The notes under the pieces: model-generated
Database searches by the model: none
The model's input: only the letters and a program-made list of their open reading frames with translations
Told to the model about the DNA's origin: nothing
Part shown: piece by piece, positions 5,723 to 28,499 of the stretch
Layout: every line of letters starts with the position of its first letter
How positions within the stretch are numbered: the stretch's first letter is position 1
Translations under genes and position numbers: made by a program
Assembly: GCA_031180595.1 (NCBI GenBank)
Contig: JAPSLQ010000013.1
Coordinates: 1-38,088 of the forward strand
Direction: 5' to 3'
DNA from: Isoptericola sp.
Lineage (GTDB): Bacteria > Actinomycetota > Actinomycetes > Actinomycetales > Cellulomonadaceae
DNA length: 38,088 nt

Positions 5723-8158
5723 TCAGCCCAGCGAGGCGCACTGGCCCGAGGCCGGGCCGGTCACCTCGTTCTCCGTCCCGCTCGGTGTCCACCGGTTGTC
5801 GCTGCACGCGAGCGGGCCGCCGACCTCGTTTCCGTCGACGACGACGTCGCCGCGGTTGCCGGTCAACGAGACGCGGGACTCGAACGTGTTGTCGCGCAGC
5901 TCGACCGATCCGAGGGTGTCGCGGACGGAGACCGTGCCCGACACGGTCGATCCCGTCACGACCACCCGTCCCGCGCCGGTAGCCCGCAACGGACCGTCGA
6001 TCGTGGCGTCGGTCGCGACGAGCGTCGCGTCGTCGGCCACGATGACCGGCCCGGCAACGGTCGCGTCGGCGAGGCACACTGTCCCGTTCGAGATGGTGAG
6101 CCTGCCCTCGTGGCCTCCGGTGACGGTCGAGTCGCAGTGCACCGCGGTGGCGAAACGGTAGACGTGCGTCCCTTCCGAGAACCAGACGCGACCGTCGGCA
6201 TCGACCGTGAGCGCGTGTGCGTTGCGGTCCACGACGACGTGTCGTTCGTCGCGGGCCGCGTCGAACCAGCCGAGGCCCTCCCCACCCCAGTCGACGTAGA
6301 GCCGGCCGTCGAGCGGGTTGAACTCGAGCTGCTGTGCGCCCTGTGCGCCGTCGAAGCCGCGCGAGACCTCGCGTGTGGCGACGTCGAGGGCGAACACCTC
6401 GCCCGCGGCGGTGCCCCAGAGGGTGCCCGCGCCGTCGAACGCGAGGTCGCTCACCGTGCCGGCTCCCGGGACGGGCGCCGTCTGCCAGAGCAGTTCACGG
6501 TCGTCGACCGACCAGGCGAAGACGACCGCCTCGCTGGCGCGCGGCTGGGTCGCCGTGTACCCGCCGTAGATCGACGAGGCACCGTAGACGATCCCGTCAC
6601 GGTACGTGAGCGCCACGATGCTCTGATCGGGGACGAGCCCACGCTCCTGGAAGACGACCTCCTCGGTCGCGGAGTCCCAGAGCAGGAAGACCCCGCCGTA
6701 GCGGTCGAGGCCGGGCTCTGTTCCGAGCGCCACGTACCGACCGGCACCAGTCAGCGCCCCGGCGCGCACCTGCTCCTCGCTCTTGAGATTGACGATCTGC
6801 CGGGGGTTCTCTGGCAGGCCAGGTTCGCTCGACGGCGAGTACTCGCTGCTGTTCCACAGCTGCGTCGGGTCGTACTCGTAGAGTCGCGCGTCAGGGTAGG
6901 CGCCGAGGTACGTGCGGTCGCCGATCGTGACCATCGCCTCCATCTGTGCGAACCGACGGAACGACGTCTGGTCGCCGGAAACACTGTCGAACGTGGCGAA
7001 GCCGCCGCTGAGGAACCCACCCGCGTGCACCCGGTCGCCTGCGCCTTGCGCGAGCACGGTGACGGGGATCGGCGTGCCAGGGATCTGCGCGTCGACGAAG
7101 TCGAACGCACCGGTCACCGGGGAGTAGCGGAACATCGAGCCGCGCCACAACAGGCCCACGATGCTCCTGCCGGGGAAGTCTGGGTCGTCGAGTTCCGCCC
7201 ACCCGATGCCCCTGGTGTTCGCCACCCGGCCCTCGAACGGCATGTCGGTAGGCGTGAGCGTGCGGGTCGTCGGGTCGTAGCCGTGCAGCCGCCCGTCGGC
7301 GACGAGGTACACGGTCCCGTCTGGGCCCGGCGCGGAGACGTCCAGGCCGTGCGCGGCCGGGATGTGGTCGACCCACTCCCCGGCGGCGACGTCGTAGACG
7401 AACAGGTCGTCGGGGGACGCCTCACCGTACCGGGCGTAGAGATGGCCGTCCCAGACGTTCAGGTCGTAGACGTACTCCGAGGCCGGGTCGGCGGCGGGCG
7501 GTGCGGGCAGCTCGGCCGTCGAGCCCGTGACGGGGTCGAGCGCGAAGACGCGGCTCGGCCGGCTCGTGCCGAGGTACACCGTGCCGTCCTCGTAGGCCAC
7601 GCTGCGGACGTAGTCTGAGCTCGAGACCCTGCCGTAGTCGCGGAACCTCCCCGTCGCCGGGTCGTAGGAGAACACCGCTCCGTTGGGTGACATGCCTCCG
7701 TAGACGACGCCGTTCTCGTCGCTGTCGAGCGACCACACGAACGTGCCGCTGGGCAGCGGGTTGCCGAGGTCGATGACGCCCGTAGCGGCGGTCCATCGGT
7801 AGAGGTGGGAGGAGCCGTAGCTGCCGACGTAGACCGATCCGTCGACCGAGACCTCGACGGCCCACGCGCCGCCCGAGCCGGGCAGCGGGTAGGTCGCCAC
7901 GAGCTCGCCGGTGTCTGGGTCCACGGCGTTGAGCGCCGCGGGAGTGCTGCTCGACGCGCTCCACAGCACCGTGTCGCCGTGAGGGCCGGACCCCACGTCG
8001 CCCCCGATCAGGAGGACGTCGCGGAGCGGCTCGCCGAGGTCCTCGACCGGCGACGCCGGCTCGGCTCCGGCGGTTGAGGTGAGGAGTCCAACCGTGATGG
8101 CGGCGGCGGTGAAGGAAGCGATGCCGCGCCAGGGTCGTCGTCGGGACGTTTCACTCAT
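5723..8158 (-). CDS. Secreted beta-propeller protein P1 with C-terminal Cys-flanked repeat tail
   Basis: Signal peptide MSETSRRRPWRGIASFTAAAITVGLLTSTAGA; many blade-like repeats (VYVGSYGSSHLYRW, VVYGGMSPNGAVFSYDPATG, VYLGTSRPSRVFALDPVTG); tail CDSTVTGGHEGRLTISNGTVCLADATVAGPV...GPLACSDN...VTGPASGQCASLG. Confidence 0.8.
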   Translation of the reverse strand: MSETSRRRPWRGIASFTAAAITVGLLTSTAGAEPASPVEDLGEPLRDVLLIGGDVGSGPHGDTVLWSASSSTPAALNAVDPDTGELVATYPLPGSGGAWAVEVSVDGSVYVGSYGSSHLYRWTAATGVIDLGNPLPSGTFVWSLDSDENGVVYGGMSPNGAVFSYDPATGRFRDYGRVSSSDYVRSVAYEDGTVYLGTSRPSRVFALDPVTGSTAELPAPPAADPASEYVYDLNVWDGHLYARYGEASPDDLFVYDVAAGEWVDHIPAAHGLDVSAPGPDGTVYLVADGRLHGYDPTTRTLTPTDMPFEGRVANTRGIGWAELDDPDFPGRSIVGLLWRGSMFRYSPVTGAFDFVDAQIPGTPIPVTVLAQGAGDRVHAGGFLSGGFATFDSVSGDQTSFRRFAQMEAMVTIGDRTYLGAYPDARLYEYDPTQLWNSSEYSPSSEPGLPENPRQIVNLKSEEQVRAGALTGAGRYVALGTEPGLDRYGGVFLLWDSATEEVVFQERGLVPDQSIVALTYRDGIVYGASSIYGGYTATQPRASEAVVFAWSVDDRELLWQTAPVPGAGTVSDLAFDGAGTLWGTAAGEVFALDVATREVSRGFDGAQGAQQLEFNPLDGRLYVDWGGEGLGWFDAARDERHVVVDRNAHALTVDADGRVWFSEGTHVYRFATAVHCDSTVTGGHEGRLTISNGTVCLADATVAGPVIVADDATLVATDATIDGPLRATGAGRVVVTGSTVSGTVSVRDTLGSVELRDNTFESRVSLTGNRGDVVVDGNEVGGPLACSDNRWTPSGTENEVTGPASGQCASLG

Positions 8159-8223
8159 GATGTATCTGCTCTCTGTTCGTTCTGGGACGTGCTCGGGTCG
8201 TCGGTTGGGTGTTGGTCTCGTTC

Positions 8224-10920
8224 TCATCGACTCGTGAGGGGAGCGCACTGCCCCGTGACCGGCCCGTCGAACGTGCTCGGCAGGTCGGCATCGGTCGCGT
8301 CGACCGTGTTGCCCGCGCAGACGAGCGGGCCGTCGATCTCGCTGCCGGCGATGACGAGCGATCCCGCCGTGCCGGTGACGTGCACCGGCCCGTCGACCGA
8401 GGTTCGTCGCAGCTCGACGGTCGAGGCGGTGTCCGTGATGCGGACAGGCCCCGTCACGGTTGTGCGGGTGAGGTGGACGCCTTCGGCGGCCGTCGTGGTC
8501 ACCGGGCCCTCGATGGTTGCGTCGTCGGCCACCAGGGTCGCTCCGGCGCCGACCTCGACGGGCCCCGTGACGGTGCCGCTCAGGCACAGCACGCCCGGAC
8601 GTGCCGTGAGGCGGCCGTCGTGGCCGTCGACCGTCGTGTCGCAGGTCCACGGTGTCAGCGCGTACGTGACGGAGATCTGCGAGTTGGTCGCGGGGCGCAC
8701 GACGCGCACGGACCGTTCGCCCTCGCTCGCGTCCGAGGCCTCGTGGACGGTAAGCCGGAGCGAGCCGTCGTCCCCGACGTGGCGGGCGCCGAGTGAACGG
8801 CCGTCGACGTACGGCTCGACGAGCTCTCGGGGTCCGAACCCGGCGAGGCTCACGACGACGTCGTCTCCGGGGTGGGCGGAACGGGTGGACAACGTCACCG
8901 ACGCGGCGCGAGCCGTGGAACGCGTGTACTCCCACGCCGTCGTGTCCCGGCCGAGGTAGATGTGACCGTTGTTGCTCAGCACGCCGTAGGACGCCGGCCG
9001 GAACCACTGCGCCCGGCTGAGCGACTCGGTGTCGATCGAGTACGCGCGTGCCTGCGTGACGACGTCGAGGCGGTCTGTGTACGGGTCGATCCAGAGCCGG
9101 GCGCCGACCCATGCGTACTGGATCGACTCCCACGGGTAGGGCTCGTACGTGCGCGTGGCGAGGACGGCACCCGTCGCCGGGTCGATCTTCACCACAGAGT
9201 TGGGCGAGTGCGTCCAGAGCGTGCCGTGGCGGTCGACCACGAGCTCCCCGTAGGCGCCAGTCCCTGCCAAGGGAGCGACCTGCCACAGCAGGCGCCGCTC
9301 CTCGACGTCGTAGGCGAACACGCGAGCGTCGGTATCGCTCGGGCGTGGCGCCCCCGCACCGCCGAACACTGAGGTCGCACCGTAGAGCACACCGTCGACG
9401 TAGGTGAGGCCCACGACGCTGTGACCCGGGACGACGTCGACGAACCAGTGCTCACGGCTGGTGGTGTCGAGCAGGGTCAGGCCGCCGCCGGGCATGCCGT
9501 TGGCTGCGACGGTGCCGATGGCGAGGTGCTCGCCTGCCGACGCCATGGCGAACGGCCGCGACTGCCCGTGCTCGTAGAGGCGCAGCTCGAGCGAGGGGTT
9601 GACGCCGCGGCGGTAGGGCTCCGACGGGTCGTAGCGGTAGATCGCCCCGGATGGGTACGTGCCGACCCAGAGCGCACCGTCATGCGTCGTCATGCCCTCG
9701 GCCTGTCCGACCTCGGGCGCGAAGCCGCGCTTCTCACCGGTCACCGTGTCGAAGCTGGCGAGCCCCCCGGCGAGGTACGAGCCGAAATAGATGCGACCGT
9801 CAGGGCCGGTCGTCAACGATCGGATGGGCGCCGGTGCGCCGACGACGTCGGCACTGCGCTCCTCGCCCTCGCCGGTCACGGGGTTGTAGACGAAGTAGCC
9901 ACCCTGGTGGTCGGCGCCAACGACGCTCAACCCGGGCCACCTGCCGGAGCCGTCGTCGAGAGGCAGGAATCCGAACGCGCGGACGTCGGAGACCCCGGTC
10001 AGACTCGTCGGCTCGTAGGACCTGGACTCGAGGTCGTAGGCGTGCAGCGTGCGGTCGCGGACGAAGAACACCGTGCGGCCGTCCTCGGCGACGGGTGACA
10101 CGAAGAGGCCGTGCGCGCGGTCGATGGAGTCGATCCATTGCCCGGCCGCGATGTCGTAGACGTGCAGCGGCTCCGGGGCGCCGCCGCGGCTGAAGCGCGC
10201 GAAGAGCAGCCCACCGCGCACGTCGAGGTCGTAGACGTACTGCAGGGCGGCTGCCCCCTCGGGAAGCGGGATGGCGGTGCGCCACCCGGAGTCGACGTCG
10301 ATCGCGGTGATGGTCGGGGTTGCGCCAGTGCCGGCGTAGATCGTGCCGTCGGCCACGGTGATCGAGCGGACGATGAGGTTGGTGGTGTCGGGGACGGGGC
10401 CGTAGTCACGAGTCCGGCCGGTCCGTGGGTCGTACTGGAAGACGTGTCCGCCGAGCTGGCCCGTACCGCCGTAGACGCGGCCCTCCTCGTCGTGTGTGAC
10501 CGACCAGATGAACGTCTCCCCGGCGACCTGCTGGCCGAGGTCTTCGACGCTCGTGCTCCCCGGGGTGTACCGAAAGAGCCTGCCCTCGCCGTACGAGCCG
10601 ACGTACACGTCGCCGTTCGGCGTCACGTCGACGGCCCAGGACCCGGATGCGCCGGGCATCACCGCCTCGAATGTGCGCTCGCCCGTGCGTGCATCGACCG
10701 CGCTGAAGACAGCAGGCGACCCTGAGGAGACGTAGAAGATGAGCGGCTCGCCGTCGGGCCCCAGGCCGACCTGGGAGCCGGGGGCCGTGATGCCGTCGAG
10801 GGGTAGGGGACTGATCTGCTCGAACGTCGGTGTCGGATCCGACGCCACGGCCGGTGTCGTCAGCCCGATCGCGACGAGCGTGGCGAGCGCCTTGGCTGCG
10901 ATCGACGTGCGGATTTGCAT
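8224..10920 (-). CDS. Secreted beta-propeller protein P2 with Ig-like insert and C-terminal Cys-flanked repeat tail
   Basis: Signal peptide MQIRTSIAAKALATLVAIGLTTPAVA; blades paralogous to P1 (VYVGSYGEGRLFRYTPG, VYGGTGQLGGHVFQYDPRTG); tail CDTTVDGHDGRLTARPGVLCLSGTVTGPV...GPLVCAGN...VTGQCAPL; RBS GAAGGAG. Confidence 0.8.
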   Translation of the reverse strand: MQIRTSIAAKALATLVAIGLTTPAVASDPTPTFEQISPLPLDGITAPGSQVGLGPDGEPLIFYVSSGSPAVFSAVDARTGERTFEAVMPGASGSWAVDVTPNGDVYVGSYGEGRLFRYTPGSTSVEDLGQQVAGETFIWSVTHDEEGRVYGGTGQLGGHVFQYDPRTGRTRDYGPVPDTTNLIVRSITVADGTIYAGTGATPTITAIDVDSGWRTAIPLPEGAAALQYVYDLDVRGGLLFARFSRGGAPEPLHVYDIAAGQWIDSIDRAHGLFVSPVAEDGRTVFFVRDRTLHAYDLESRSYEPTSLTGVSDVRAFGFLPLDDGSGRWPGLSVVGADHQGGYFVYNPVTGEGEERSADVVGAPAPIRSLTTGPDGRIYFGSYLAGGLASFDTVTGEKRGFAPEVGQAEGMTTHDGALWVGTYPSGAIYRYDPSEPYRRGVNPSLELRLYEHGQSRPFAMASAGEHLAIGTVAANGMPGGGLTLLDTTSREHWFVDVVPGHSVVGLTYVDGVLYGATSVFGGAGAPRPSDTDARVFAYDVEERRLLWQVAPLAGTGAYGELVVDRHGTLWTHSPNSVVKIDPATGAVLATRTYEPYPWESIQYAWVGARLWIDPYTDRLDVVTQARAYSIDTESLSRAQWFRPASYGVLSNNGHIYLGRDTTAWEYTRSTARAASVTLSTRSAHPGDDVVVSLAGFGPRELVEPYVDGRSLGARHVGDDGSLRLTVHEASDASEGERSVRVVRPATNSQISVTYALTPWTCDTTVDGHDGRLTARPGVLCLSGTVTGPVEVGAGATLVADDATIEGPVTTTAAEGVHLTRTTVTGPVRITDTASTVELRRTSVDGPVHVTGTAGSLVIAGSEIDGPLVCAGNTVDATDADLPSTFDGPVTGQCAPLTSR

Positions 10921-11012
10921 CTCGTGTGCTCCTTCGAACTTCGTTGTTCGTCCGGTCGCCGAGGGCGCCACGCGGTCGGCGTGGCGCGTGAAGCGTCCTG
11001 TGGCGGTGTGCA

Positions 11013-11040
11013 TTGACAGCCCGCCCGCACCGTGGATAGT
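11013..11040 (+). promoter_or_regulatory. Putative promoter of the ABC importer/amidohydrolase/aminotransferase operon
   Basis: TTGACA (11013-11018), 16 bp spacer, GATAGT (11035-11040), upstream of GTG at 11091. Confidence 0.5.
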
Positions 11041-11049
11041 TTCGGTGCA

Positions 11050-11090: not shown

Positions 11091-12353
11091 GTGCACAAGA
11101 GACTCGCTGTTCCCGCCGCCGCGGCCGCCTCGCTCTTGGCGCTGACCGCGTGCGGGGGCGGGGACGGCGCCCCAGAGGGATCGGGCGGTGGCGAGCAGTC
11201 GACCGTCACGGTCTGGATGTACCCGGTGATCCCTGATGAGCAGGCGAGCCAGGCGTACTGGGCCGGAGTCGAGGAGGACTTCGAGGCGCAGCACGGCGAG
11301 ATCGACCTCGTCGTCGAGCTCCAGCCGTGGGACAACCGGGACGAGAAGATCGCGACGGCGCTCGCCTCAGGCCGCGGTCCGGACCTGGTCCTGCTCACCG
11401 CCGACCAGACGCTCAACTATCACGCGACCGGGGGTCTCAAGCCGCTCGACGACGTGATCGAGCCCTCGGAGTTCTACCCTCAGACCATCGACGCCGTGAC
11501 GTACGACGGCAGCGTCTACGGCTACCCGATCTACCAGACGTCGACGACGACGGTCTACAACACAGCCTTGTTCGAGCAGGCCGGGATCGAGGAGCTGCCC
11601 ACGACGTGGGACGAAGTCCTTGCCGCCGCGCCCGCGCTCGCGGAGCAGGGTGTGGCCGTCATGGACTACTCCGGCTCGCCGAACATGACGCTCAACCTCA
11701 GCTTCTACCCGTTGCTCTGGCAGGCGGGAGGCTCCGTCTTCACCGAGGACGGCTCCGACGTGGCGTTCGACGGCCCCGAGGGTGTCGCCGCGCTGGAGTT
11801 CCTCGTCGACCTGCAGGCGGCCGGTGGGCTTCCGCCGGACGCCGCAACCAAGGCCAACGCGATCGAGGGTGGCGCACTCGGCACCGGGGCGGCGGCCATG
11901 GGATATGCCGTCACGCTCGCCGAGGTCCAGCAGCTGCAGGCCGCGGTCGGTGAGGAGAACGTCGTGGTCGGCGAGCCGCTCACCGGCGTCGAGCAGGTCA
12001 CGTTCGGCACGCCCGGCGTGCTGGCCCTGACGACGATCAACGAGGACCCGGAGGCGGCCGCGAAGGTGGCGCAGTACCTCGGCTCGGCGGAGGTGAGCGC
12101 CGGCCTGCACGAGGCGTCCGGCACCTACCCGGTGCGACTCGACGCCGACACCTCTGGCTCCGACGAGCTCACGACGGCGTTCATCGACGCGCTCGACTAC
12201 GCTCGCCCGGGCGAGGTCGTCCCGAGCGCACGTCAGGTCATGGCCGCCCTGAGTCCGCACTTGCAGGCGGCCCTGCAGGGGACGGTCTCGGCCCAGGAGG
12301 CGCTCGACGCCGCCGCGGCCGAGGCTCGCCAGATCATCGAGCGGGCTTCCTGA
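11091..12353 (+). CDS. CUT1-type sugar ABC transporter substrate-binding lipoprotein
   Basis: MHKRLAVPAAAAASLLALTACGGGDG lipobox; VTVWMYPVIPDEQASQAYWAGVEEDFEAQHGEIDLVVELQPWDNRDEKIATALASGRGPDLVLL; RBS GGAGGG. Confidence 0.9.
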   Translation: MHKRLAVPAAAAASLLALTACGGGDGAPEGSGGGEQSTVTVWMYPVIPDEQASQAYWAGVEEDFEAQHGEIDLVVELQPWDNRDEKIATALASGRGPDLVLLTADQTLNYHATGGLKPLDDVIEPSEFYPQTIDAVTYDGSVYGYPIYQTSTTTVYNTALFEQAGIEELPTTWDEVLAAAPALAEQGVAVMDYSGSPNMTLNLSFYPLLWQAGGSVFTEDGSDVAFDGPEGVAALEFLVDLQAAGGLPPDAATKANAIEGGALGTGAAAMGYAVTLAEVQQLQAAVGEENVVVGEPLTGVEQVTFGTPGVLALTTINEDPEAAAKVAQYLGSAEVSAGLHEASGTYPVRLDADTSGSDELTTAFIDALDYARPGEVVPSARQVMAALSPHLQAALQGTVSAQEALDAAAAEARQIIERAS

Positions 12354-12367
12354 CGCATCCGTCACGC

Positions 12368-12400
12368 GGTGGCCGGCCGGGAAGCAGCCGGCCGGCCACC
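12368..12400 (+). other. Intergenic hairpin between SBP and permease genes
   Basis: GGTGGCCGGCCGG-gaagcag-CCGGCCGGCCACC: perfect 13-bp stem, 7-nt loop. Confidence 0.85.
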
Positions 12401-12422
12401 GTCACTCACCTCGAAGGCAACC

Positions 12423-13379
12423 ATGGCGCTCACGAAGCACAGGTCAGATCCGCCCACGACCGTGGCCGCCGCCCCCGGCGTGTCGCCCTTGGGCCGGCGT
12501 GCGGTGCCGCTGCGAGCACGGCTGCGCGAGCCGCTCGCCGGTCTGCTGTTCGTCCTTCCGATGCTCGTCCTGTTCGCGATATTCCGGTTCGTGCCGACCC
12601 TCGGTGCCGCCGGCATGAGCTTCACGGACTACCGTCTCAGCGGCGAGTTCTCCTTCGTCGGCGTCGAGAACTACGGGCGGCTCATGGGCGACCCGTTGTT
12701 CCTCCAGAGCCTCCGAACCACGCTGGTGTACGCCGCCATCTACGTTCCGATGGTCTTCGTCGTCGCGATGGGGACCGCGCTCCTCCTGCACCATGTCGTG
12801 TGGGCGAGGGGCCTCTTCCGCGGAGCGCTCTTCCTGCCGTACGTCACGTCGTTCGTCCTCGCCGGCATCATCTGGACGTGGGTCTACCAGACCGACGGTC
12901 TCGTCAACGGCCTGCTGCGGTCGGCGGGTCAGGACGCCGTCCCGTTCCTCTCGGGCGACCAGCTGCTCGTCCTGTCGTCGTTGAGCGTGGTATCGGCATG
13001 GCGTGGATTCGGCTACTCCATGCTCATCCTGCTCGCTGGCCTGAAGAACATCCCCGAGGAGCTCACCGAGGCCGCGATGCTCGACGGTGCGGGCCCGGTG
13101 CAGCGCTTCATCCGCATCACGTTCCCGCTGCTGCGCCCGGTCGTGTTCTTCGTCGCCGTGATCGAGACGATCGCCGCGTTCCAGGTGTTCGACACGATCT
13201 ACGTCATGACGGGCGGTGGACCCGCCCGCGCGAGCTACTCGCTCGTGTTCATGCTCTACGACCAGGGCTTCCAGTTCTTCGACTTCGGCTACGCGGCCAC
13301 GGTGGGCATCGCCCTGTTCCTCATCGTCTTCGTCATCTCGATCGTCCAGCGCCGCTTCCTCGACCGGGAGACCACATGA
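12423..13379 (+). CDS. Sugar ABC transporter permease (MalF/UgpA-like)
   Basis: GLLFVLPMLVLFAIFRFVPTLGAAGMSFTDY...VENYGRLM...EELTEAAMLDGAGPVQRFIRITFPLLRP (EAA motif). Confidence 0.9.
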   Translation: MALTKHRSDPPTTVAAAPGVSPLGRRAVPLRARLREPLAGLLFVLPMLVLFAIFRFVPTLGAAGMSFTDYRLSGEFSFVGVENYGRLMGDPLFLQSLRTTLVYAAIYVPMVFVVAMGTALLLHHVVWARGLFRGALFLPYVTSFVLAGIIWTWVYQTDGLVNGLLRSAGQDAVPFLSGDQLLVLSSLSVVSAWRGFGYSMLILLAGLKNIPEELTEAAMLDGAGPVQRFIRITFPLLRPVVFFVAVIETIAAFQVFDTIYVMTGGGPARASYSLVFMLYDQGFQFFDFGYAATVGIALFLIVFVISIVQRRFLDRETT

Positions 13380-14272
13380 CCGTCGAAGCGAGCACCGCCC
13401 CCGGGGAAGCGGGCACCGGTGCCACCACGACCCACGTCCCCGGCTCGGCCGGCGTCTCCCGCCGCCGGACGCACCGCCAGCCGTGGGCCATCGCGCTGCT
13501 CGTCGTCGCGTCGCTCTTCACGGTGGGCCCGTTTCTCGCCGTGTTCATCCTCGCCCTGAGCCCGGCAGGCGCCCCGACGATCCCGTTCCAGTGGCCTGAG
13601 GCGCTCACGCTCGACAACGTCTCACGGGTGCTCGGCGCGCGGAGCTTCGTGCGGTGGACGCTCAACTCGTTCGTCTACTCGGTCGTCTCGGTCGTCGTCA
13701 TCCTCCTGACGGCCGCCATGGCCGGGTACGCGTTCGCAAAGAAGCGGTTCCCGGGACGCGACGTGCTCCTGTGGTCCTTCCTGGCGACCCTGATGGTGCC
13801 CGTGCAGGCGACGATCATCCCGATGTTCGTGCTCGTGGCGGGCCTCGACGGCGTCGATACCTTCTGGGGGCTCATCGTGCCGACGCTCGCGAACTCGCAG
13901 GCGGTGTTCCTCATGCGCCAGTTCATCCGCGGGCTACCCGACGAGCTGTTCGACGCTGCCCGCATCGACGGGGCAGGGGAGTGGACGACGTTCTGGCGGA
14001 TCGTCCTCCCGCTCACCCGGCCCGTGCTCGCCACGCTCGGGATCTTCGTCTTCCTCTGGCACTGGAACGACTTCCTGTGGCCGCTGATCATCGCGCAGTC
14101 CGACGAGATGCGGACGCTCACCGTGGGCCTGTCGACTTTGAGTGCCGAGAACGTCGCGGTCGCGGACCTGATGGCGGCCGCCGCGGTCAGCGTGGTGCCG
14201 TGCCTTCTGGTGTTCGCTTTCCTGCAGCGCTACCTCGTCAACAGCATCGCCTCGACCGGGATCAAGGGCTGA
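13376..14272 (+). CDS. Sugar ABC transporter permease (MalG/UgpE-like)
   Basis: FAKKRFPGRDVLLWSFLATLMVPVQATIIPMFVL...DELFDAARIDGAGEWTTFWRIVLPLTRPVLATLGIFVFLWHWNDFLWPLI; ATGA overlap with preceding gene. Confidence 0.9.
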   Translation: MTVEASTAPGEAGTGATTTHVPGSAGVSRRRTHRQPWAIALLVVASLFTVGPFLAVFILALSPAGAPTIPFQWPEALTLDNVSRVLGARSFVRWTLNSFVYSVVSVVVILLTAAMAGYAFAKKRFPGRDVLLWSFLATLMVPVQATIIPMFVLVAGLDGVDTFWGLIVPTLANSQAVFLMRQFIRGLPDELFDAARIDGAGEWTTFWRIVLPLTRPVLATLGIFVFLWHWNDFLWPLIIAQSDEMRTLTVGLSTLSAENVAVADLMAAAAVSVVPCLLVFAFLQRYLVNSIASTGIKG

Positions 14273-18224: not shown

Positions 18225-18304
18225 CCCCGTCCCTCCGTTCCGGGCAGCGCCGTGCCCGCGTGCCAGCATAGGGCCGGCGCGGTCGATTCGGTCAGGCCCA
18301 TTAT

Positions 18305-19220: not shown

Positions 19221-19287
19221 GGCGGGATCATGCCATCGGCCCGGGGTCCAGCGTCCGCGCTCTGGGACCTGTGCTTGACTGACCGCC

Positions 19288-20226: not shown

Positions 20227-21027
20227 TCAGCTGCGGCGGTCGGTCCGAACGGCGTGACCCGGGGCGGTCACCAGCCAGGGCTCGCGGTGGACGGCCTTCC
20301 AGCCGAGCACGTTCGTCGCGGTGTCGTCGTCGATCGAGACCCCCTGCGTGTCGCCCGTGACGGCGACCGCCGCATAGGGTGCCCCGTCGCGGTGGAGGGC
20401 GGCCTCGACCGCGTCCGCGAGGTCGTCCGGGTGCAGCGCGCCGAAGCACGTGCCGTCGTCGAGGGCCGGCACCCGCGGCGCGGTCGCCTCACCGGCGCCA
20501 GGCGATCTCCACGCCGGCCAGAGCGCGTCGGTGGTCGGGAAGGCGAGCCTCAGCGACGTCACGCGCAGGTCGTCGCCCGCGATGGCCCGGCACGCGGTTT
20601 CGGCGAGCCGCTTGGTGAGCCCGTACGGCTCGTGCGCATCGGGGACGGCGCCGCGCTCGATGCGCACCCGGCCGTAGTCGCGGAACACCGACAGGGTGCT
20701 CGCGTGCACGACGTGGCCGACACCGGTCTCGCGCGCGGCGTGGAGCGTGTGGACCACACTCGAGACGTTCACACGCAGGGCGGCATCGATCATCCGTGCG
20801 TCGCGGGCGGCGGAGCCGCGAGGCACGACCGCTGCGAGATGGACCGCGGCGTCCGCTCGAGCCAACGCGGCGCGCACGGCCGCCGGGTCGGTGGCGTCCA
20901 GGTGCAGCCGCTCTGTGCTGGCGCCGCCGGAGGCCAGGTCTCCGACCGTGACGTCGTGGTGGGCGCGCAGACGGGCGGCGAGCGCGGAGCCGACGACCCC
21001 CGCGCCGCCGATGAGCAGGATTCGCAT
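20227..21027 (-). CDS. NAD-dependent epimerase/dehydratase (extended SDR)
   Basis: MRILLIGGAGVVGSALAARL (GxxGxxG)...EPYGLTKRLAE (YxxxK); RBS GGAGGT. Confidence 0.85.
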   Translation of the reverse strand: MRILLIGGAGVVGSALAARLRAHHDVTVGDLASGGASTERLHLDATDPAAVRAALARADAAVHLAAVVPRGSAARDARMIDAALRVNVSSVVHTLHAARETGVGHVVHASTLSVFRDYGRVRIERGAVPDAHEPYGLTKRLAETACRAIAGDDLRVTSLRLAFPTTDALWPAWRSPGAGEATAPRVPALDDGTCFGALHPDDLADAVEAALHRDGAPYAAVAVTGDTQGVSIDDDTATNVLGWKAVHREPWLVTAPGHAVRTDRRS

Positions 21028-21090
21028 GGCACCTCCATGGACGATCGTGGCGGACAACGCGCGCGAGCGACGACCTCGCGCGGGATACTT

Positions 21091-21102
21091 GACGATATCG
21101 GA
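21091..21102. promoter_or_regulatory. Candidate operator GACGA-TA-TCGGA in divergent promoter region
   Basis: Core palindrome CGATATCG overlapping TTGACG (21089-21094); reverse complement GTCCGATATCG resembles GTCCGAAATCG at 11050. Confidence 0.4.
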
Positions 21103-21161
21103 CCAGGCCGTAATCATGATGACCATTCGCCGCGACCGGCGCGGCTGCGTTCAGGAGTGTC

Positions 21162-22202
21162 ATGAGCAACCCTCTGCAGGTTCCCGCCGACGAGCGCGAG
21201 CTCGAGGACCGGCTGTCCACGCCTAGCGACGCGCTGTGTGCGGAGCTGGCGACGCTCGACGGCGACGTCGTCATCCTCGGCGCCGGCGGCAAGATGGGAC
21301 CCACGCTGTCGCGCATGGCGCGTCGTGCGCTCGACGCGGCGGGGCGGCGCGACGTCACGGTCCACGCCGTCTCGCGCTGGAGCGACACCGCGGTGCGTGC
21401 CCGGCTGGACGGGGCGGGTGTCGCCACCGTCGGCGCCGATCTCGCGGACCCGAGCGCGCTCGAGGCGCTCCCCGACGCCGCGAACGTGGTCTTCATGGTC
21501 GGCGCCAAGTTCGGGGTGACGGGCCACGAGTATCGAGCATGGCTGACGAATGCGGCACTGCCCCACGCAGTCGCGCGGCGCTACGCGAGCGCGCGCGTGG
21601 CGTCCTTGTCGACGGGCAACGTCTACCCCCTCACGAGCCTCGTGACGTCCCCACCGACTGAGGAGTCGCCGCTCGGACCCGTCGGCGAGTACGCGATGAG
21701 CTGCCTCGGCAGGGAGCGCGTCTTCGAGGGGGCCGCGGCGACGCAGGGCACGCGCGTCTCGCTCGTGCGGCTGAACTACGCGGTCGAGCCGCGCTACGGC
21801 GTCCTCGCGGACCTCGGTAGGGCGCTGGTCGCAGGGGAGCCCATCGACCTCACGACGGGCTTCGTCAACGTGGTCTGGCAGCGCTACGCCAACGAGGTCG
21901 TTCTCCGCTCCCTCGTGCGCGCCGCGCCGGAGCCTTTCGTCCTCAACCTCACCGGTCCCGAGACGTTGTCGGTGCGCACGACCGCCACCGCGCTCGGGAA
22001 GATTCTCGGCGTGGAGCCGAAGTTCGAGGGCGAGGAATCCGGCTCGGCACTGCTGTCCGACGCCCGCCGCTGCCACGAGCTCTTCGGCTACCCGGACGTG
22101 CCGGTCGGCGCCCTGGTGCGCTGGCAGGCCGACTGGATCGCCCGGGGCGGCGTGCTGTGGGACAAGCCGACGAAGTTCCAGCGTCGGGACGGCCGGTTTT
22201 GA
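21162..22202 (+). CDS. NAD-dependent epimerase/dehydratase-like protein with altered YxxxK motif
   Basis: VVILGAGGKMGPTLSRMARRAL...STGNVYPL...GEYAMSCLGRERVFE...LNLTGPETLSVRTTATALGKILG. Confidence 0.8.
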   Translation: MSNPLQVPADERELEDRLSTPSDALCAELATLDGDVVILGAGGKMGPTLSRMARRALDAAGRRDVTVHAVSRWSDTAVRARLDGAGVATVGADLADPSALEALPDAANVVFMVGAKFGVTGHEYRAWLTNAALPHAVARRYASARVASLSTGNVYPLTSLVTSPPTEESPLGPVGEYAMSCLGRERVFEGAAATQGTRVSLVRLNYAVEPRYGVLADLGRALVAGEPIDLTTGFVNVVWQRYANEVVLRSLVRAAPEPFVLNLTGPETLSVRTTATALGKILGVEPKFEGEESGSALLSDARRCHELFGYPDVPVGALVRWQADWIARGGVLWDKPTKFQRRDGRF

Positions 22203-23263
22203 GCGGCCACGGGCGTCCGCCGCGCTCCGCCGAGGAGGTTCACGAACGGCTCAGCCGCGGGCTCGTCGTGCCGGCGATGCCGCTTGCGCTGCGCCACGAC
22301 CGCACCTACGACGAGCGGTACCAGGCCGCGCTCACTCGCTACTACGCCGAGGCGGGTGCGGGCGGGATCGCCGTGGCCGTCCACGCGACCCAGTTCGAGA
22401 TCCGCGACCTGAGCACCCGGCTGCTCGAGCCGGTGCTCGAGACAGTCGCCACGTCGCTGCGCGACCATGGGCACGAAGACCTGTTGCGCGTCGCCGGCAT
22501 CGCCGGGCCCACCGCCCAGGCCGTGGCAGAGGCCGAGGTCGCGCGGGAGCTCGGCTACGACGCCGCGCTCCTGTCTCCGCCGATGGGGACGCCTGCCACC
22601 GAGACCGAGATGCTCGAGCGTGCGCGGGCCGTCGCCGAGGTGATGCCCGTGATCGGGTTCTACCTGCAGGACGCCGTCGGAGGTATGCGCCTGTCGGGTC
22701 GCTTCTGGCGCGCCTTCGCCGAGATCGACGGCGTGGTCGGGGTCAAGATGGCTCCGTTCGACCGCTACCGCACGCTCGACGTCGTGACGGCCGTGCTGGA
22801 GTCGTCGCGGGCGGACCGCATCTCGCTCTACACCGGCAACGACGACAACATCGTCGGCGACCTCATCACGCCCTTCGAGTGGCGCGGGGGCGAGCGGTGG
22901 ATCGACGGTGGCCTCCTCGGGCAGTGGGCGGTCGGCACCCGCCGGGCCGTCGAGTCGATGTCGCTGGTGCACGCGGCGCGCGGCGGCGACGATGCGGCGC
23001 TCCGGCGCTTGCTGGCGGTCGGCCCGCAGCTCACCGAGCTCAACCAGGCGGTGTTCGACGCGGAGAACGCGTTCCGCGGATGCATCGCCGGCGTCGGCTA
23101 CGTCCTCTGGCGCCAGGGACTGCTCCCGAGCACGCGGTGCTTGAGCCACCGCGAGGTGCTCTCGCCCGGGCAGGCCGAGAGGATCGACGCACTCCACAAG
23201 CGCTACCCGTGGCTCTCGGACACGGAGTTCATCGAGGAGCACCGCGACCGGTGGCTCTCGTGA
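22199..23263 (+). CDS. Dihydrodipicolinate synthase family protein (longer, divergent)
   Basis: LVVPAMPLALRHDRTYDERYQAALTRYYAEAGAGGIAVAVHATQFEIR...VIGFYLQDAVGG...DGVVGVKMAPFDRY; likely TTG start overlapping TGA of previous gene (ORF extends to 22157). Confidence 0.75.
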   Translation: MSGHGRPPRSAEEVHERLSRGLVVPAMPLALRHDRTYDERYQAALTRYYAEAGAGGIAVAVHATQFEIRDLSTRLLEPVLETVATSLRDHGHEDLLRVAGIAGPTAQAVAEAEVARELGYDAALLSPPMGTPATETEMLERARAVAEVMPVIGFYLQDAVGGMRLSGRFWRAFAEIDGVVGVKMAPFDRYRTLDVVTAVLESSRADRISLYTGNDDNIVGDLITPFEWRGGERWIDGGLLGQWAVGTRRAVESMSLVHAARGGDDAALRRLLAVGPQLTELNQAVFDAENAFRGCIAGVGYVLWRQGLLPSTRCLSHREVLSPGQAERIDALHKRYPWLSDTEFIEEHRDRWLS

Positions 23264-23354
23264 GGACGCCTTCTGGTCGTCCGCGACGCTCAGCCAGCCC
23301 TACCCGGCCACGCCGTGGCCACGACCTCGCCTCGGCGAACGACAGGAGTTCTCA

Positions 23355-25814
23355 ATGCGGAGAATGACTCGACTCGGGATCGTCGCGGCGCTCGCCGCGG
23401 CGACCACGGCGCTCGTCCCTACCGTGGTGTCGGCGACGCCCGACACGTGGTCCCCTGGTACGTCCGTGCAGCCGGGGCACGAGGAGAACCTCGGCCAGAC
23501 GATGCCCGACAAGATCCTTTCGCAGGACCAGTCGCAGGGTGTCTCGCGCGACGGACGCCCGCAGGCCTACTGGGTGACGGCCGGCAACGAGGTGACACCC
23601 GCGATGTTCCAGGTCACGGACCTGCGGACGGGAGACGTCGTCTTCGCCGAGCGGCTCCCCCGGGGGCGCGACAGCTGGGCCAACGCCTTCTCGTACGCAG
23701 AGGGCGCCGTGTACTTCGCGACCACCGAGGGCTACCTGTACCGGTGGGCGGACGGCGACGAGCACGTGACCCAGCTGGACTACCCCTTCCGAGGGGAGGG
23801 GATCTGGCGCCTCGCCGTGGCGCCCGACGGGACCGTCTACGGCGGGACCTACCCCGGCGGCCTCCTATGGTCGTACGACCCCGCCACGGGGGAGTTCAGC
23901 GACCACGGGCAGATCGTGCCGGGGGAGACGTACGGGCGGGCCCTCGCCGTGGACGACGAGCACGTGTACTTCGGCACGCAGCCCAACGCACGCCTCGCCC
24001 GGATGGACCGGGGCACCGGCGAGGTGACCCAGATGCCGCTGCCGGCCGAGTACGAGGGCCAGAGCGCGGTGTACGACATGACGCTCGCCGGCCGCTACCT
24101 CCTCGCGCGTGTCCAGGACGTCAACGACATCCTCGTCTGGGACACGACGACGCTCGAGCTGGTGCACGTCGTCGAGCAGGTCTCCGGGCGTGCCATCTCC
24201 CCGCCGGACCCGAGCGGGCAGCACGTCTACTTCCGGCGCGCGAGCCAGGGCATCGTGCAGCTCACGCTCGGCACGTGGCAGGAGCAGCCCGTCCGCTGGG
24301 GGCCGAACGCCTTCCCGGGGTCGTGGGCCTGGATCGACATGGCGGACCCCCGGTACCCCGGGCTGTCGCTGTCGATGACGTACTACCGCGGCCGGGTGTA
24401 CATCATGAACCTCGAGACGCGCGCGAACGCCTACTACGGCGAGGACCGTCTGCAGGGCGCCCCGACGCCGCTCCAGGCGCTCGGCGTGGGTGACGACGGG
24501 ACGGTGTACACCGGGGGATTCCTCACGCCGCCCGGGATCTCGGCCTACCGACCGGACACCGGCGCGTTCGCTCTCCTCAGCGGTGGCGGTCAGGTCGAGG
24601 GGTTCGGCTCGTTCGACGGTGATGTCGTCTACGGCCGGTACCCAGAGGGCCACCTCCTGCGCTACGACCCCGACCGGCCGTGGACGACCTCCGGCAACCC
24701 GGGACCCGCGACCGTCATCGGCCACGAGCAGGACCGCCCGCAGGCGCTCGTGCAGGCCGGTGAGCTCGTGGTCGTCGGGAGCGTGCCGAAGTCTGGGCGG
24801 CTCGGCGGCGCCCTCAGCCTGTGGGACCCCGACACCGGAGCCATCGAGGTGCACCGCGACGTCGTCGCGCAGCAGAGCGTCGTCTCCCTGGCGGTCGCCG
24901 ACGGCCTCGTGGTCGGTGGCACCTCGATCTGGGGCGGCTACGGCATCGAGCCCACGGCCCGCGAGGCCGAGCTCTTCGTCTTCGACCTGGAGACCCGGGA
25001 GCGCCGGTCCACGCGCGTCGTCGTGCCCGGCGCCGAGTCCGTCAACGCCCTGACGTTCGACGAGAAGGGGAAGCTCTGGGGCATCGCCGACGGCACGTTG
25101 TTCCGCGCCGAGCTGGATCCCGACACGGCCGAGGTGCGTGTCGAGCGCGCCGAGCAGCTCTTCGGTGCGGACCGGGCGCGGTACGGCGCCGACCGTGGCC
25201 TGGTGTTCCGCGACGGCATGCTCTACGCCACCTCCGGCGGGCGCCTCTGGTCGGTCAACCCGGTGACGTGGCGCGCGACCGCCCTCGCGGGCGGCGGCCT
25301 CGGCCACCTCGCGAACGGGCACGACGGCTCCCTGTACTACGTGCGCGGACACGAGCTCCGGCGGTGGGTCTTCGAGCCCACGCCGGAGCCGCCGACCTGC
25401 ACGACCGTCCTCGACGAGCCGCACGCCGCACCTGTCACCGTCGCCGAAGGCACGACGTGCATCGTCGGCACCGTCGTCGACGGGGCGATCACGGTTCAGC
25501 CGGGCGCGTCGCTCGTCATCGACGGCTCTCGCGTCACCGGACCGGTGCGCGCCACAGGCGCGGACGTGGTCTGGGCCTTCGACGCCGACATCGTCGGCCC
25601 CGTGGCGCTTCACGACACCGCCCGCCGCGTCCACGTCGACTCCTCGCGGATCGATGGACCGGTGACCGTGCGGGGCAGCGCGGGACCCGTCGTGGTCACC
25701 GCCACCACCGTCGACGGTCCGCTCGCATGCGACGACAACTCCGAGCCCCCGACGGACGTGGGCGTCCGGAACGCGGTCGCCGGCCCTGCACGCGGGCAGT
25801 GTGAGACATGGTGA
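23355..25814 (+). CDS. Secreted beta-propeller protein P3 with C-terminal Cys-flanked repeat tail
   Basis: Signal peptide MRRMTRLGIVAALAAATTALVPTVVSA; blades VYGGTYPGGLLWSYDPATG, VYFGTQPNARLARMDRGTG; SVVSLAVADGLVVGGTSIWGGYG matches P1/P2 motif; tail VVDGAITVQPGASLVIDGSRVTGPV...GPLACDDN...VAGPARGQCETW; RBS AGGAG. Confidence 0.8.
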   Translation: MRRMTRLGIVAALAAATTALVPTVVSATPDTWSPGTSVQPGHEENLGQTMPDKILSQDQSQGVSRDGRPQAYWVTAGNEVTPAMFQVTDLRTGDVVFAERLPRGRDSWANAFSYAEGAVYFATTEGYLYRWADGDEHVTQLDYPFRGEGIWRLAVAPDGTVYGGTYPGGLLWSYDPATGEFSDHGQIVPGETYGRALAVDDEHVYFGTQPNARLARMDRGTGEVTQMPLPAEYEGQSAVYDMTLAGRYLLARVQDVNDILVWDTTTLELVHVVEQVSGRAISPPDPSGQHVYFRRASQGIVQLTLGTWQEQPVRWGPNAFPGSWAWIDMADPRYPGLSLSMTYYRGRVYIMNLETRANAYYGEDRLQGAPTPLQALGVGDDGTVYTGGFLTPPGISAYRPDTGAFALLSGGGQVEGFGSFDGDVVYGRYPEGHLLRYDPDRPWTTSGNPGPATVIGHEQDRPQALVQAGELVVVGSVPKSGRLGGALSLWDPDTGAIEVHRDVVAQQSVVSLAVADGLVVGGTSIWGGYGIEPTAREAELFVFDLETRERRSTRVVVPGAESVNALTFDEKGKLWGIADGTLFRAELDPDTAEVRVERAEQLFGADRARYGADRGLVFRDGMLYATSGGRLWSVNPVTWRATALAGGGLGHLANGHDGSLYYVRGHELRRWVFEPTPEPPTCTTVLDEPHAAPVTVAEGTTCIVGTVVDGAITVQPGASLVIDGSRVTGPVRATGADVVWAFDADIVGPVALHDTARRVHVDSSRIDGPVTVRGSAGPVVVTATTVDGPLACDDNSEPPTDVGVRNAVAGPARGQCETW

Positions 25815-27064
25815 CGGGGTACCGCGCCAGGCTGGCTCTCGACGGGGGGGTACCGGTGCGCACCCGAGCGATCCCGACGACGCTCGAGCGCGCCGGCCGA
25901 CGCTTTGACGAGGCCGAGGAGGAGGCCGTGCTTCGCGTGGTGCGGTCGGGGATGCTGTCGAGCGTGTGGGGTCACGAGACGAGAGCGCTCGAGTCGGAGT
26001 TCGCAGAGCTCGTCGGCGTCGACCACGCGGTGGCATGCTCGAGCGGCACGGCTGCGATCCACCTCGCGATCGCGGCCGTCGACCCGGCGCCCGGTGACGA
26101 GATCATCGTGCCGCCCATCAGCGACATCGGCTCCGTGCTGCCGGTCCTGGCGCACAACGCGGTACCCGTCTTCGCCGACGTGGACCCGGACACCGGCTGC
26201 CTCGATCCCGCGGCGGTCGAGGCCGCGCTGACGCCGCGGACTCGGGCGATCATGGCCGTGCATCTCTTCGGAAAGCCAGCACCGGTCGACCGCCTGCGCG
26301 CGATCGCCGACCGTGCGGGTGCCGTGCTCATCGAAGACTGCGCCCAGTCCTACCTCGCACCTACCCCCGGCGGTGCGCTCGCCGGGGCGGTCGGGCACGT
26401 CGGGTGCTTCAGCCTCCAGCAGCACAAGCACATCACCGCGGGTGACGGCGGCCTGGCGGTGACGCGTGACCCTGCGCTCGCCGAGCGCATGCGTCTCTTC
26501 GCCGACAAGGGCTGGCCGAGGGCTGAGGGACGCGTCTACCGCTCGTTCGCCCTCAATTACCGCATGACCGAGCTGACCGCGGCCGTGGCGCGGGCACAGC
26601 TGCGCAAGCTGTCCGGGGTCGTCGCCGACCGACGGGCCGCCGCGGCCCGCCTCCGGGCGGCACTGGACGGTGTCGACCACCCCGTGCTTCCCGACGACGA
26701 CGGCCACGTCTACTGGTACCTGCCACTGCTCGTCGACGGCATCGACCAACGCGGGCTCGCCCGCTACGGCGACGCACTGACGGCGGAGGGAGTCCCCGCC
26801 ATCGCGGGCTACCTGGCGCGACCCCTCTACGCCGAACCCGTGCTCCGTGACGAACTCGCGTACGGGGGCAGCGGTTACCCGACACGCGGTGCAAGGTCGT
26901 ACCCCGACGGCCTGTGCCCGGTCGCGGAGGAGATGATCGCGAGACGACTCGTCGTCGTCCCGTGGAACGAGAACCTCTCGACGGAAGACGTCGAGGACGT
27001 CGCACAGGCGATCGGGAAGGTCCATCGTGCGGTCACGGCCGCGTCGGACGGGAGCGCGGCGTGA
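25808..27064 (+). CDS. DegT/DnrJ/EryC1/StrS family PLP-dependent aminotransferase (AT2)
   Basis: VDHAVACSSGTAAIHLAIAAVDPAPGDEIIVPPISDIG...CFSLQQHKHITAGDGGLAVTRD (putative PLP Lys)...LNYRMTELTAAVA; overlaps P3 stop. Confidence 0.9.
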   Translation: MVTGYRARLALDGGVPVRTRAIPTTLERAGRRFDEAEEEAVLRVVRSGMLSSVWGHETRALESEFAELVGVDHAVACSSGTAAIHLAIAAVDPAPGDEIIVPPISDIGSVLPVLAHNAVPVFADVDPDTGCLDPAAVEAALTPRTRAIMAVHLFGKPAPVDRLRAIADRAGAVLIEDCAQSYLAPTPGGALAGAVGHVGCFSLQQHKHITAGDGGLAVTRDPALAERMRLFADKGWPRAEGRVYRSFALNYRMTELTAAVARAQLRKLSGVVADRRAAAARLRAALDGVDHPVLPDDDGHVYWYLPLLVDGIDQRGLARYGDALTAEGVPAIAGYLARPLYAEPVLRDELAYGGSGYPTRGARSYPDGLCPVAEEMIARRLVVVPWNENLSTEDVEDVAQAIGKVHRAVTAASDGSAA

Positions 27065-27765
27065 TCCTCGACTGCGACCTGCTCGTCGGACGCGACCTCG
27101 ACACCGCGCGGAGGCAGCGCCCGGCGGAACTCGCGGACACGCTGCGCGAGGTGGGGATCGACGGAGGCGCCGTCGCGTCGCTGCGGGCACTTTCGTTCCA
27201 TGCGCGAAGCGGAAACCGAGAGGCGCACGAAGCGGCCGTCGCGCACGGGTGGCTGGCTGTCGTCGCCGTCGATCTCCGCGACCCGCTCGGGGCAGAGGCG
27301 GAGATCCTGGCGGCGCGTGAGGCCGGCATCCGGCTCGTGCGTCTTGCTCCCGAGCGTCAGGGCATCCCGCCGGCGGCGCCCAGGGTGCGGCTCTTGGCCC
27401 GGATCGCGACCGAGAGCGGTGCGACGATCCTCGCCGAGGGCGCGCTGCCCAGCGTCGCGCCGGCGTTCGTCGGACTCGGGGCGAACGTCGTGTTCCTCGA
27501 CCAGCACTTCTACGACCTGGGGGAGTTCATCCTGCTGTCGCGCGACGAACCGGGCTTTCACGCCTCGACCCGGCTTCTCGGCGCTCCGGGGGCGTGGGAG
27601 ACGCTCCTCGAACACGCGGGCGTGGAACGCCTCGTGTTCGGGGTGCGCAGCGGGTGGTACGAGATCTCGAGCGTGCTCGAACGGTTCCACGCTCTCGGCC
27701 TCGACGACGTCGAGCGGGCGCTCGTCGGGCACGGCAACCTCGAACGCTTGGCAGGACCGCGATGA
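27061..27765 (+). CDS. Degenerate amidohydrolase-fold protein (pAH2)
   Basis: MILDCDLLVGRD in place of DxHxHxG; VERLVFGVRSGWYE in place of FGSDxP; same operon position and layout as pAH1; GTGA overlap. Confidence 0.6.
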   Translation: MILDCDLLVGRDLDTARRQRPAELADTLREVGIDGGAVASLRALSFHARSGNREAHEAAVAHGWLAVVAVDLRDPLGAEAEILAAREAGIRLVRLAPERQGIPPAAPRVRLLARIATESGATILAEGALPSVAPAFVGLGANVVFLDQHFYDLGEFILLSRDEPGFHASTRLLGAPGAWETLLEHAGVERLVFGVRSGWYEISSVLERFHALGLDDVERALVGHGNLERLAGPR

Positions 27766-28499
27766 TCATCGACGTGCACGGACATCTGGGGCCGTGGTTC
27801 TTCTCCGGCAACGATGCGTCGACCGGGCAGGACAACGTGCGCCTCATGGACGCTCACGGCATCGACGTGCAGCTCGTCTCGAGCGTCGAGGCCGTCAACT
27901 ACGACCCTGAGTCGGGCAACCAGGCCCTGGCCTCGGCGATCGCCGACGAACCGCGGCTCCTCGGGATGCTCGTGATCGACCCCCGGGAGCTGGCGCTCGC
28001 GGAGAGGCAGCTCGAGTCCCTGCCGTCGACGTTCGTGGGGGCCAAGATCCATACCCACTACGCGCGCACGTCGCCACGGTCCGGTGCGATGGCCGACGCT
28101 CTGCGACTGTGCGCGGCGGCCGGGCTTCCCGTGCTCGTGCACACGTGGGAGGCCGAGGTGGTCGAGCTTGCCGAGACCGTGGCACGCGTCGACGACGTTC
28201 GCGTGATCGCCGGCCACATGGGCGGACCCGGCTGGCGCCGGAGTCCGAGTGCGGTCGAACGGACCGACCGCCTCTGGCTCGAACCGTGCTGGTCGCACGC
28301 TCCTGCCGGACGCATCCGCTGGGTGCTCGATCGCGTCGGTCCCGAGCGGCTCGTGTTCGGCAGCGACTCGACGCTCATCGACCCGGGAGTCACGCTCGGG
28401 GCGGTCAGGGCCGCTCGTCTGGACGCCGAGGAGGAACGCCGGGTCTTCCACGCCAACGCCATCGAGATCTTCGGAGACCGGGTGGTTCCTGGGTCATGA
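27762..28499 (+). CDS. Amidohydrolase family protein (AH2)
   Basis: MIIDVHGHLGPW...VGAKIHTHYARTSPRSGAM...VLVHTWEAE...VIAGHMGG...LVFGSDSTLIDPG; ATGA overlap. Confidence 0.85.
   Translation: MIIDVHGHLGPWFFSGNDASTGQDNVRLMDAHGIDVQLVSSVEAVNYDPESGNQALASAIADEPRLLGMLVIDPRELALAERQLESLPSTFVGAKIHTHYARTSPRSGAMADALRLCAAAGLPVLVHTWEAEVVELAETVARVDDVRVIAGHMGGPGWRRSPSAVERTDRLWLEPCWSHAPAGRIRWVLDRVGPERLVFGSDSTLIDPGVTLGAVRAARLDAEEERRVFHANAIEIFGDRVVPGS

Follow-up and report, generated by a model that had tools for sequence, protein, structure and literature searches.

The window analysed here, a stretch of 38,088 nucleotides with a GC content of 72% from the actinobacterium Isoptericola sp. (GenBank assembly GCA_031180595.1, contig JAPSLQ010000013.1), carries at positions 5723-28499 a single unit of 18 genes (Table 1). 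The source assembly, which belongs to the class Actinomycetes, amounts to 3.2 Mb in 356 contigs and is 86.6% complete. Two modules can be recognised, each encoding a DegT-family aminotransferase (AT), an amidohydrolase (AH) and a pseudo-amidohydrolase (pAH) that has lost its metal ligands. Specifically, in module A the minus-strand propeller genes P2 and P1 diverge from the plus-strand series SBP-permF-permG-pAH1-AH1-AT1, which starts with a solute-binding protein (SBP), and module B reads SDR2-DapA2-P3-AT2-pAH2-AH2 on the plus strand, SDR standing for short-chain dehydrogenase/reductase. REG, DapA1, GFO and SDR1 are situated between the two. All the genes named in an initial annotation, made from the sequence alone, were found where it had placed them, every named family being backed by Pfam, and the few-base stop/start overlaps that it had described in both AT/pAH/AH sets were measured as 4 bases. 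Overlaps of this length join permF/permG, pAH1/AH1, AH1/AT1, SDR2/DapA2, AT2/pAH2 and pAH2/AH2; P3 and AT2 overlap by 7 bases, and the gap between permG and pAH1 is +1.

Table 1. Genes of the unit, in window coordinates (DHDPS, dihydrodipicolinate synthase; HTH, helix-turn-helix; PLP, pyridoxal phosphate; ABC, ATP-binding cassette).
Gene	Assignment	Position	Strand	Basis
P1	secreted double beta-propeller with C-terminal beta-strand-rich domain, paralogue of P2/P3	5723..8158	-	Pfam DUF6923/Reg_prop; alignments
P2	secreted double beta-propeller	8224..11013	-	Pfam DUF6923/Reg_prop; alignment
SBP	CUT1-type solute-binding lipoprotein	11091..12353	+	Pfam SBP_bac_8/SBP_bac_1, E 1e-32
permF	ABC permease	12369..13379	+	Pfam BPD_transp_1
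permG	ABC permease	13376..14272	+	Pfam BPD_transp_1; 4-base overlap with permF
pAH1	pseudo-amidohydrolase, metal ligands lost	14274..15020	+	H L R C D S G at the H H K H H H D positions
AH1	amidohydrolase, complete ligand set (HxH, K, H, H, D)	15017..15811	+	Pfam Amidohydro_2; ligand alignment
AT1	DegT-family PLP aminotransferase	15808..17004	+	best solved relative 2-deoxy-scyllo-inosose aminotransferase; Schiff-base Lys
REG	probable transcription regulator, C-terminal HTH	16986..18269	-	Pfam; co-occurrence with cluster
DapA1	DHDPS-superfamily aldolase/dehydratase, HTGRG replacing canonical motif	18324..19289	-	Pfam; NCBIfam; motif alignment
GFO	Gfo/Idh/MocA oxidoreductase, weak similarity to inositol 2-dehydrogenase	19288..20220	+	Pfam; NCBIfam
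SDR1	NAD-dependent epimerase/dehydratase-type SDR	20227..21126	-	Pfam
SDR2	SDR-like protein, YxxxC replacing YxxxK; core system marker in many phyla	21162..22202	+	profile, motif and co-occurrence searches
DapA2	DHDPS-superfamily enzyme, VHTTQF-type motif, coupled to SDR2	22199..23263	+	Pfam; motif alignment
P3	secreted double beta-propeller with C-terminal beta-strand-rich domain	23355..25814	+	Pfam; structure model, fold search
AT2	DegT-family PLP aminotransferase	25808..27064	+	Pfam; solved relatives; Schiff-base Lys
pAH2	pseudo-amidohydrolase, metal ligands lost	27061..27765	+	D L R A E D R at ligand positions
AH2	amidohydrolase, complete ligand set	27762..28499	+	Pfam; ligand alignment

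Co-occurrence of these genes was surveyed across 395 class genomes. Sixteen of these, among them that of the window itself, carry AH2, and all sixteen also have the propeller family and REG, compared with 10 and 2, respectively, of the other 379 genomes; SDR2 accompanies AH2 in 15 of the 16. When only one genome was kept from the dominant genus, the associations gave P values of 4e-8 for the propeller, 3e-10 for REG and 2e-5 for SDR2. The gene content stays while the gene order is shuffled: genome G225 has 17 of the 18 genes and Nonomuraea gerenzanensis has 16. Much of the set is present in named Jiangella, Nonomuraea and Rhizohabitans, and subsets occur in Kribbella, Streptomyces, Actinomadura and others. 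The genome-neighbourhood comparison proposed in the initial annotation thus returned genes that recur together across genera and families, and, as judged from sequence, they form one conserved functional unit.

Related loci were searched for with an alignment of AT2. Among the 17 congeners searched, a relative of AT2 was found in only one (G004), with AT1, SDR2 and DapA2 nearby. The window genome is thus an exception in its own genus, and this near-absence suggests horizontal gain or wide loss. No description of the locus was found in the literature on the enzyme families, DUF6923, aminocyclitol catabolism and conserved clusters, the coverage of which was incomplete.

Amidohydrolases and their degenerate partners

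The Pfam family Amidohydro_2 (PF04909) matches AH1 and AH2 with E-values of 8e-32 and 2e-25, and pAH1 and pAH2 with values of 3e-6 and 2e-4. AH1 and AH2 score above the family cut-off and retain the complete set of metal ligands, which is absent from both pAH1 and pAH2. The initial annotation had recognised the pseudo-amidohydrolases, and the ligand loss is confirmed in both; what it had not noticed is that AH and pAH are paired across phyla. The related loci hold 75 AH domains with H-x-H, H, H and D, the strand-4 lysine being present in 75/75 and the pattern H-x-H, K, H, H, D in 72-75 of 75. In the 79 degenerate domains, the position of this lysine is occupied by an arginine in 65 cases.

A pAH gene lies within 150 bases and on the same strand for 67 of the 77 AH genes counted in the loci. 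Of the ten remaining genes, five are cut at the end of a locus, one encodes a fusion protein whose linker is long, one, on a Klebsiella plasmid, has its partner beyond the genes of a phosphotransferase system (PTS), and two represent another AH type, which leaves a single gene (L169) unexplained. In the Klebsiella plasmid operon (L049, 9950-14962), the AH and the degenerate AH flank mannose-type PTS genes and an ADP-ribosylglycohydrolase gene. The pairing spans Actinomycetota, Chloroflexota, Acidobacteriota, Planctomycetota, Verrucomicrobiota, Hydrogenedentota and haloarchaea. The pAH gene comes first in Actinomycetota, Chloroflexota and the planctomycete locus L137, and the AH gene does so in Acidobacteriota, Verrucomicrobiota, Hydrogenedentota and the planctomycete locus L158. 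In addition, the two genes are fused in three lineages, namely in Caldilineaceae (506-519 aa), in two Jiangella loci and, in both orders, in haloarchaea. Structure modelling of a fused Caldilineaceae pair gave a good model (pLDDT 83, pTM 0.83).

In the tree, 43 of the 46 pAH sequences fall into one clade (support 100/99). The rows labelled 'out' include second copies of window and locus proteins, so that the counts of label changes are too high, but the pAH clade is independent of these rows. The AH and pAH parts of the tree repeat each other's division into type-1 and type-2 branches, within-AH and within-pAH distances correlate over 41 pairs (r = 0.878, 0/2000 permutations), and the pair type agrees in 40 of these 41. 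Chance adjacency of pAH and AH was rejected on account of the fusions and the mirrored trees; a sequencing artefact or a decaying pAH gene was likewise rejected, the open reading frames (ORFs) being intact and conserved in many genomes.

Both pair types coexist in Chloroflexota, and in Caldilineaceae a DegT aminotransferase gene is flanked by a type-1 pair of separate genes and a type-2 pair that is fused. This coexistence points to an ancient duplication of the module, after which each module would long have had its own job, and a recent local duplication was rejected on the same ground. The initial annotation had described the modules as duplicated: there are indeed two AT/pAH/AH sets, which, from their relatives, are the product of an old duplication and no recent copy.

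Accompanying enzymes, importer and related loci

AT1 and AT2 match the Pfam DegT family over their full length, with E-values of 1e-84 to 1e-88, and the PLP Schiff-base lysine is kept in 101/101 AT relatives. The best solved relative of AT2 is a sugar aminotransferase. Their full-length similarity, with the PLP lysine conserved, is to the DegT/DnrJ/EryC1/StrS aminotransferases (5w70, AHBA synthase, perosamine synthetase). Unlike these, AT1 and AT2 are linked to an importer, to aldolase-like enzymes and to amidohydrolases, and the biosynthetic context is missing.

Besides the aminotransferases, Pfam identifies two divergent DHDPS proteins, one GFO_IDH_MocA protein, two Epimerase-type SDRs and one HTH protein in the unit; as the initial annotation had stated, it recognises no glycoside hydrolase among the cluster proteins, nor does it recognise any polysaccharide lyase. 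The DapA-like enzymes of the initial annotation are therefore present, although neither has the canonical motif. Among DapA1 relatives the Schiff-base lysine is kept in 24/24 and the active-site tyrosine in 20/24, the corresponding counts for DapA2 relatives being 47/47 and 45/47, whereas the carboxylate-binding motif of the (T/S)TGE type is replaced by HTGRG in 24/24 DapA1 and by VH(T/S)TQF in DapA2. A histidine-containing motif where the TTGE type is expected is common to both. As for the SDRs, the one between the modules, SDR1, is canonical as first described, with YxxxK recognised by eye; in SDR2 of module B, on the other hand, the catalytic lysine is changed to cysteine (YxxxC), as in 47 of 49 relatives. 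SDR2 is only distantly related to solved SDRs; it is strongly conserved across phyla, haloarchaea included, despite the YxxxC. None of the ten cluster proteins scanned against the NCBIfam equivalogs reached a cut-off, and the genes were not found to map to a characterised pathway.

In REG, Pfam recognises a family at the C-terminal HTH only, and no solved relative was found beyond the HTH; the protein may represent a new regulator family that tracks the cluster closely. One REG copy (G153:C1:3917935-3919221) contains an in-frame TAA, and the neighbouring propellers are missing from the same cluster, which suggests decay.

The SBP and the two permeases conform to the gene pattern of a CUT1 sugar ABC importer. 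No dedicated ATPase gene is found in 5723-28499; a shared ATPase is usual for such importers in actinobacteria.

Beyond the class, SDR2 occurs in many phyla, usually adjoining DapA2 and often in the company of a propeller, Gfo/Idh/MocA enzymes and sugar importers. SDR2-DapA2 with a propeller is found in Paenibacillus, in Mesobacillus, where no importer was seen at the locus, and on Streptomyces plasmids. A Prescottella plasmid carries REG, SDR2, DapA2, GFO and DapA1 without AT or AH, next to a true L-serine ammonia-lyase and an M20 deacylase. Neighbours of related propeller/SDR2 loci include a sulfatase, a PIG-L deacetylase with CBM9, AAC(3)-like N-acetyltransferases, ROK with SIS, and a phosphotriesterase-family protein; the haloarchaeal loci have heparinase II/III, sulfatases and a BadF-type ATPase as neighbours. 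These neighbour genes favour an amino-containing, sugar-like substrate, though the hints differ between lineages.

Islands on Halomontanus and Natronosalvus plasmids (L041 and L042) combine SDR2, a DegT aminotransferase, a fused AH/pAH, sulfatases and AAC(3)-like acetyltransferases, with an additional heparinase II/III gene in Halomontanus. Homologues of aminoglycoside 3-N-acetyltransferase lie in such degradation loci (L041 17053-17847 and L072 11350-12234), which are a possible natural context for this family.

The genes on either side of the unit look unrelated to it: on the left a nucleoside hydrolase, VanY, RibD-C and GCS2, and on the right a response regulator, a histidine kinase and an ABC exporter. 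Elsewhere in the window, one ORF (2091-3545) joins a DUF2809 and a VanY-type carboxypeptidase domain, and 32073-32957 encodes a biopterin-dependent aromatic amino acid hydroxylase (Pfam E 2e-66).

Proposed function of the cluster

Taken together, the gene content somewhat favours a non-phosphorylative catabolic cluster for an amino-sugar-like or aminocyclitol-like compound, equipped with heteromeric AH/pAH metalloenzymes in which pAH would be an obligate non-catalytic partner. Specifically, the propellers would bind, or cleave, extracellular glycan-like material, and the importer would take up an amino-sugar- or aminocyclitol-like product. This product would be oxidised by the GFO and SDR enzymes, its amino group removed or moved by the aminotransferases, and the AH enzymes would carry out a metal-dependent hydrolysis or decarboxylation, the product of which DapA1 and DapA2 would cleave or dehydrate, no sugar kinases being involved. 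Each AH probably works as a heteromer with its own pAH, a step better supported than the others; the pAH barrel, devoid of a metal site, may supply residues such as the conserved arginines, or quaternary structure, to the AH active site. The type-1 and type-2 pairs may act on two different intermediates or on related substrates. The earlier interpretation of the locus is partly supported, namely as regards one conserved unit with an importer, outside any characterised pathway at equivalog level and with neighbours that fit an amino-sugar-like extracellular substrate; it is revised in that the modules are no recent copy, and AH may deacylate, decarboxylate or open a ring.

We also advance, tentatively, a broader proposal, in which AH and pAH would be ancient obligate enzyme-pseudoenzyme heteromers of bacteria and haloarchaea, the metal-free barrel completing the active site of its twin, and the two pairs would drive successive steps in the degradation of an amino-sugar- or aminocyclitol-containing polymer recognised by the double propellers.

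Several observations weigh against the catabolic proposal. The nearest characterised amidohydrolases, by profile, are decarboxylases and not deacylases; the solved relatives of the DegT enzymes are mostly biosynthetic; and no polymer-cleaving enzyme was recognised in the cluster. The mirrored trees partly reflect shared inheritance, so that, as sequence evidence, they support a long joint inheritance and are no proof of contact, and in the structure model of the fused Caldilineaceae pair the inter-domain placement rests on five near-identical fused rows and two others. Furthermore, a peptide-type ABC importer, a class-III aminotransferase and an M14 peptidase accompany the Caldilineaceae module, whose substrate may therefore be something other than a sugar. 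In L128 and other Caldilineaceae loci, AH/pAH pairs stand with class-III and DegT aminotransferases, a third amidohydrolase, an M14 peptidase and a peptide-type importer; we regard these loci as another pathway using the same AH/pAH pair.

The chemistry of AH leaves room for a serious competitor, namely that it is no hydrolase and instead an ACMSD-type C-C lyase or non-oxidative decarboxylase whose substrate is an amino- or keto-uronic acid, a view to which we give somewhat less than an even chance. COG2159/ACMSD-type decarboxylases (gamma-resorcylate, 2,3-dihydroxybenzoate and 5-carboxyvanillate decarboxylases, and ACMSD) are indeed the closest characterised sequences and folds, although they are larger than AH and of low identity. 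On the other hand, the invariant strand-4 lysine together with HxH, H, H and D matches what we take to be the ligand pattern of the binuclear hydrolases of the superfamily. Moreover, the nearest small solved relative of AH, 3cjp, is uncharacterised.

That the propellers are themselves catalytic, as a new lyase or hydrolase freeing the imported product, we consider unlikely. P1, P2 and P3 are three paralogous proteins and, apart from SBP, the only obvious secreted ones; their alignment contains an invariant Tyr, Arg and Gln (Y429, Q459 and R461 in P3 numbering). However, the structure model of P3 (pLDDT 87, pTM 0.77) is a double propeller, for which the fold search retrieved chiefly WD40 double propellers of a generic kind at low TM-scores; these name no function, and the top 50 include no lyase or glycosidase. 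No solved structure matched P3 by sequence. The presence of the glycan-sensing domains of BT4663/BT4673 among the fold matches favours, at the level of the model, binding of glycan-like material rather than catalysis.

Less probable still is that pAH is no partner subunit at all, being instead a metal-independent enzyme or a ligand-binding protein that adjoins AH through a shared pathway. The pAH proteins are still constrained, with many conserved positions of their own (49 invariant in 13 pAH1 and 32 in 25 pAH2), and gene adjacency alone is no proof of contact; against this stand the fusions in three lineages and both orders, the near-constant pairing and the mirrored trees. Finally, a biosynthetic cluster, whose DegT aminotransferases and oxidoreductases would yield a natural product of the aminocyclitol or amino-sugar kind, as the main solved relatives of AT1 and AT2 (2-deoxy-scyllo-inosose aminotransferase, AHBA synthase and perosamine synthetase) would suggest, is improbable, for the SBP importer belongs to the unit, the Pfam scan found no glycosyltransferase, NDP-sugar, export or resistance gene among the cluster genes, and the variants with PIG-L deacetylase, sulfatase, serine ammonia-lyase and M20 deacylase fit breakdown.

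COG2159/ACMSD-type decarboxylases are not known to be paired with a dead paralogue. ACMSD itself depends on arginines contributed by an adjacent subunit (title of PDB 4ifk). Among known heteromers of the superfamily, the nearest is AibH1H2, the alpha-aminoisobutyrate hydroxylase of Rhodococcus, in which one subunit is non-catalytic and the heteromer serves a catabolic pathway; relatives of AibH2 sometimes occur without AibH1-like partners (PMC7782822, PMC10401708, PMC12141560). Two adjacent PF04909 subunits are common to AibH1H2 and AH/pAH, the degenerate partner in the latter being evident from its residues. Nevertheless, AibH1 still binds metal, whereas the ligands of pAH are lost; the dinuclear Mn/Fe site of AibH2 has D-x-H and additional acidic residues as ligands, as against H-x-H, K, H, H and D in AH; AibH2 needs ferredoxin and a reductase, none of which was found among the cluster genes scanned here; and the AibH subunits measure about 375 aa, compared with about 245 aa for AH and pAH. 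Because the ligands, the metal-bound auxiliary subunit and the redox partners differ, AH/pAH is no member of the AibH1H2 type. In an unrelated protein and pathway, trypanosomatid deoxyhypusine synthase is strongly activated by a catalytically dead paralogue (PMC3663545).

In conclusion, the putative catabolic cluster is built of familiar parts, and its unusual and widely conserved feature is the enzyme-pseudoenzyme pair. If true, the proposal would give the amidohydrolase superfamily, which is very large, a strong example from nature of a pseudoenzyme as an obligate partner, kept with the active enzyme over several phyla and repeatedly fused to it. The same genes would also be the signature of a degradation pathway that is widespread and composed of aldolase-, SDR- and regulator-like proteins of a non-standard type; it could reveal new chemistry and a new environmental nutrient.

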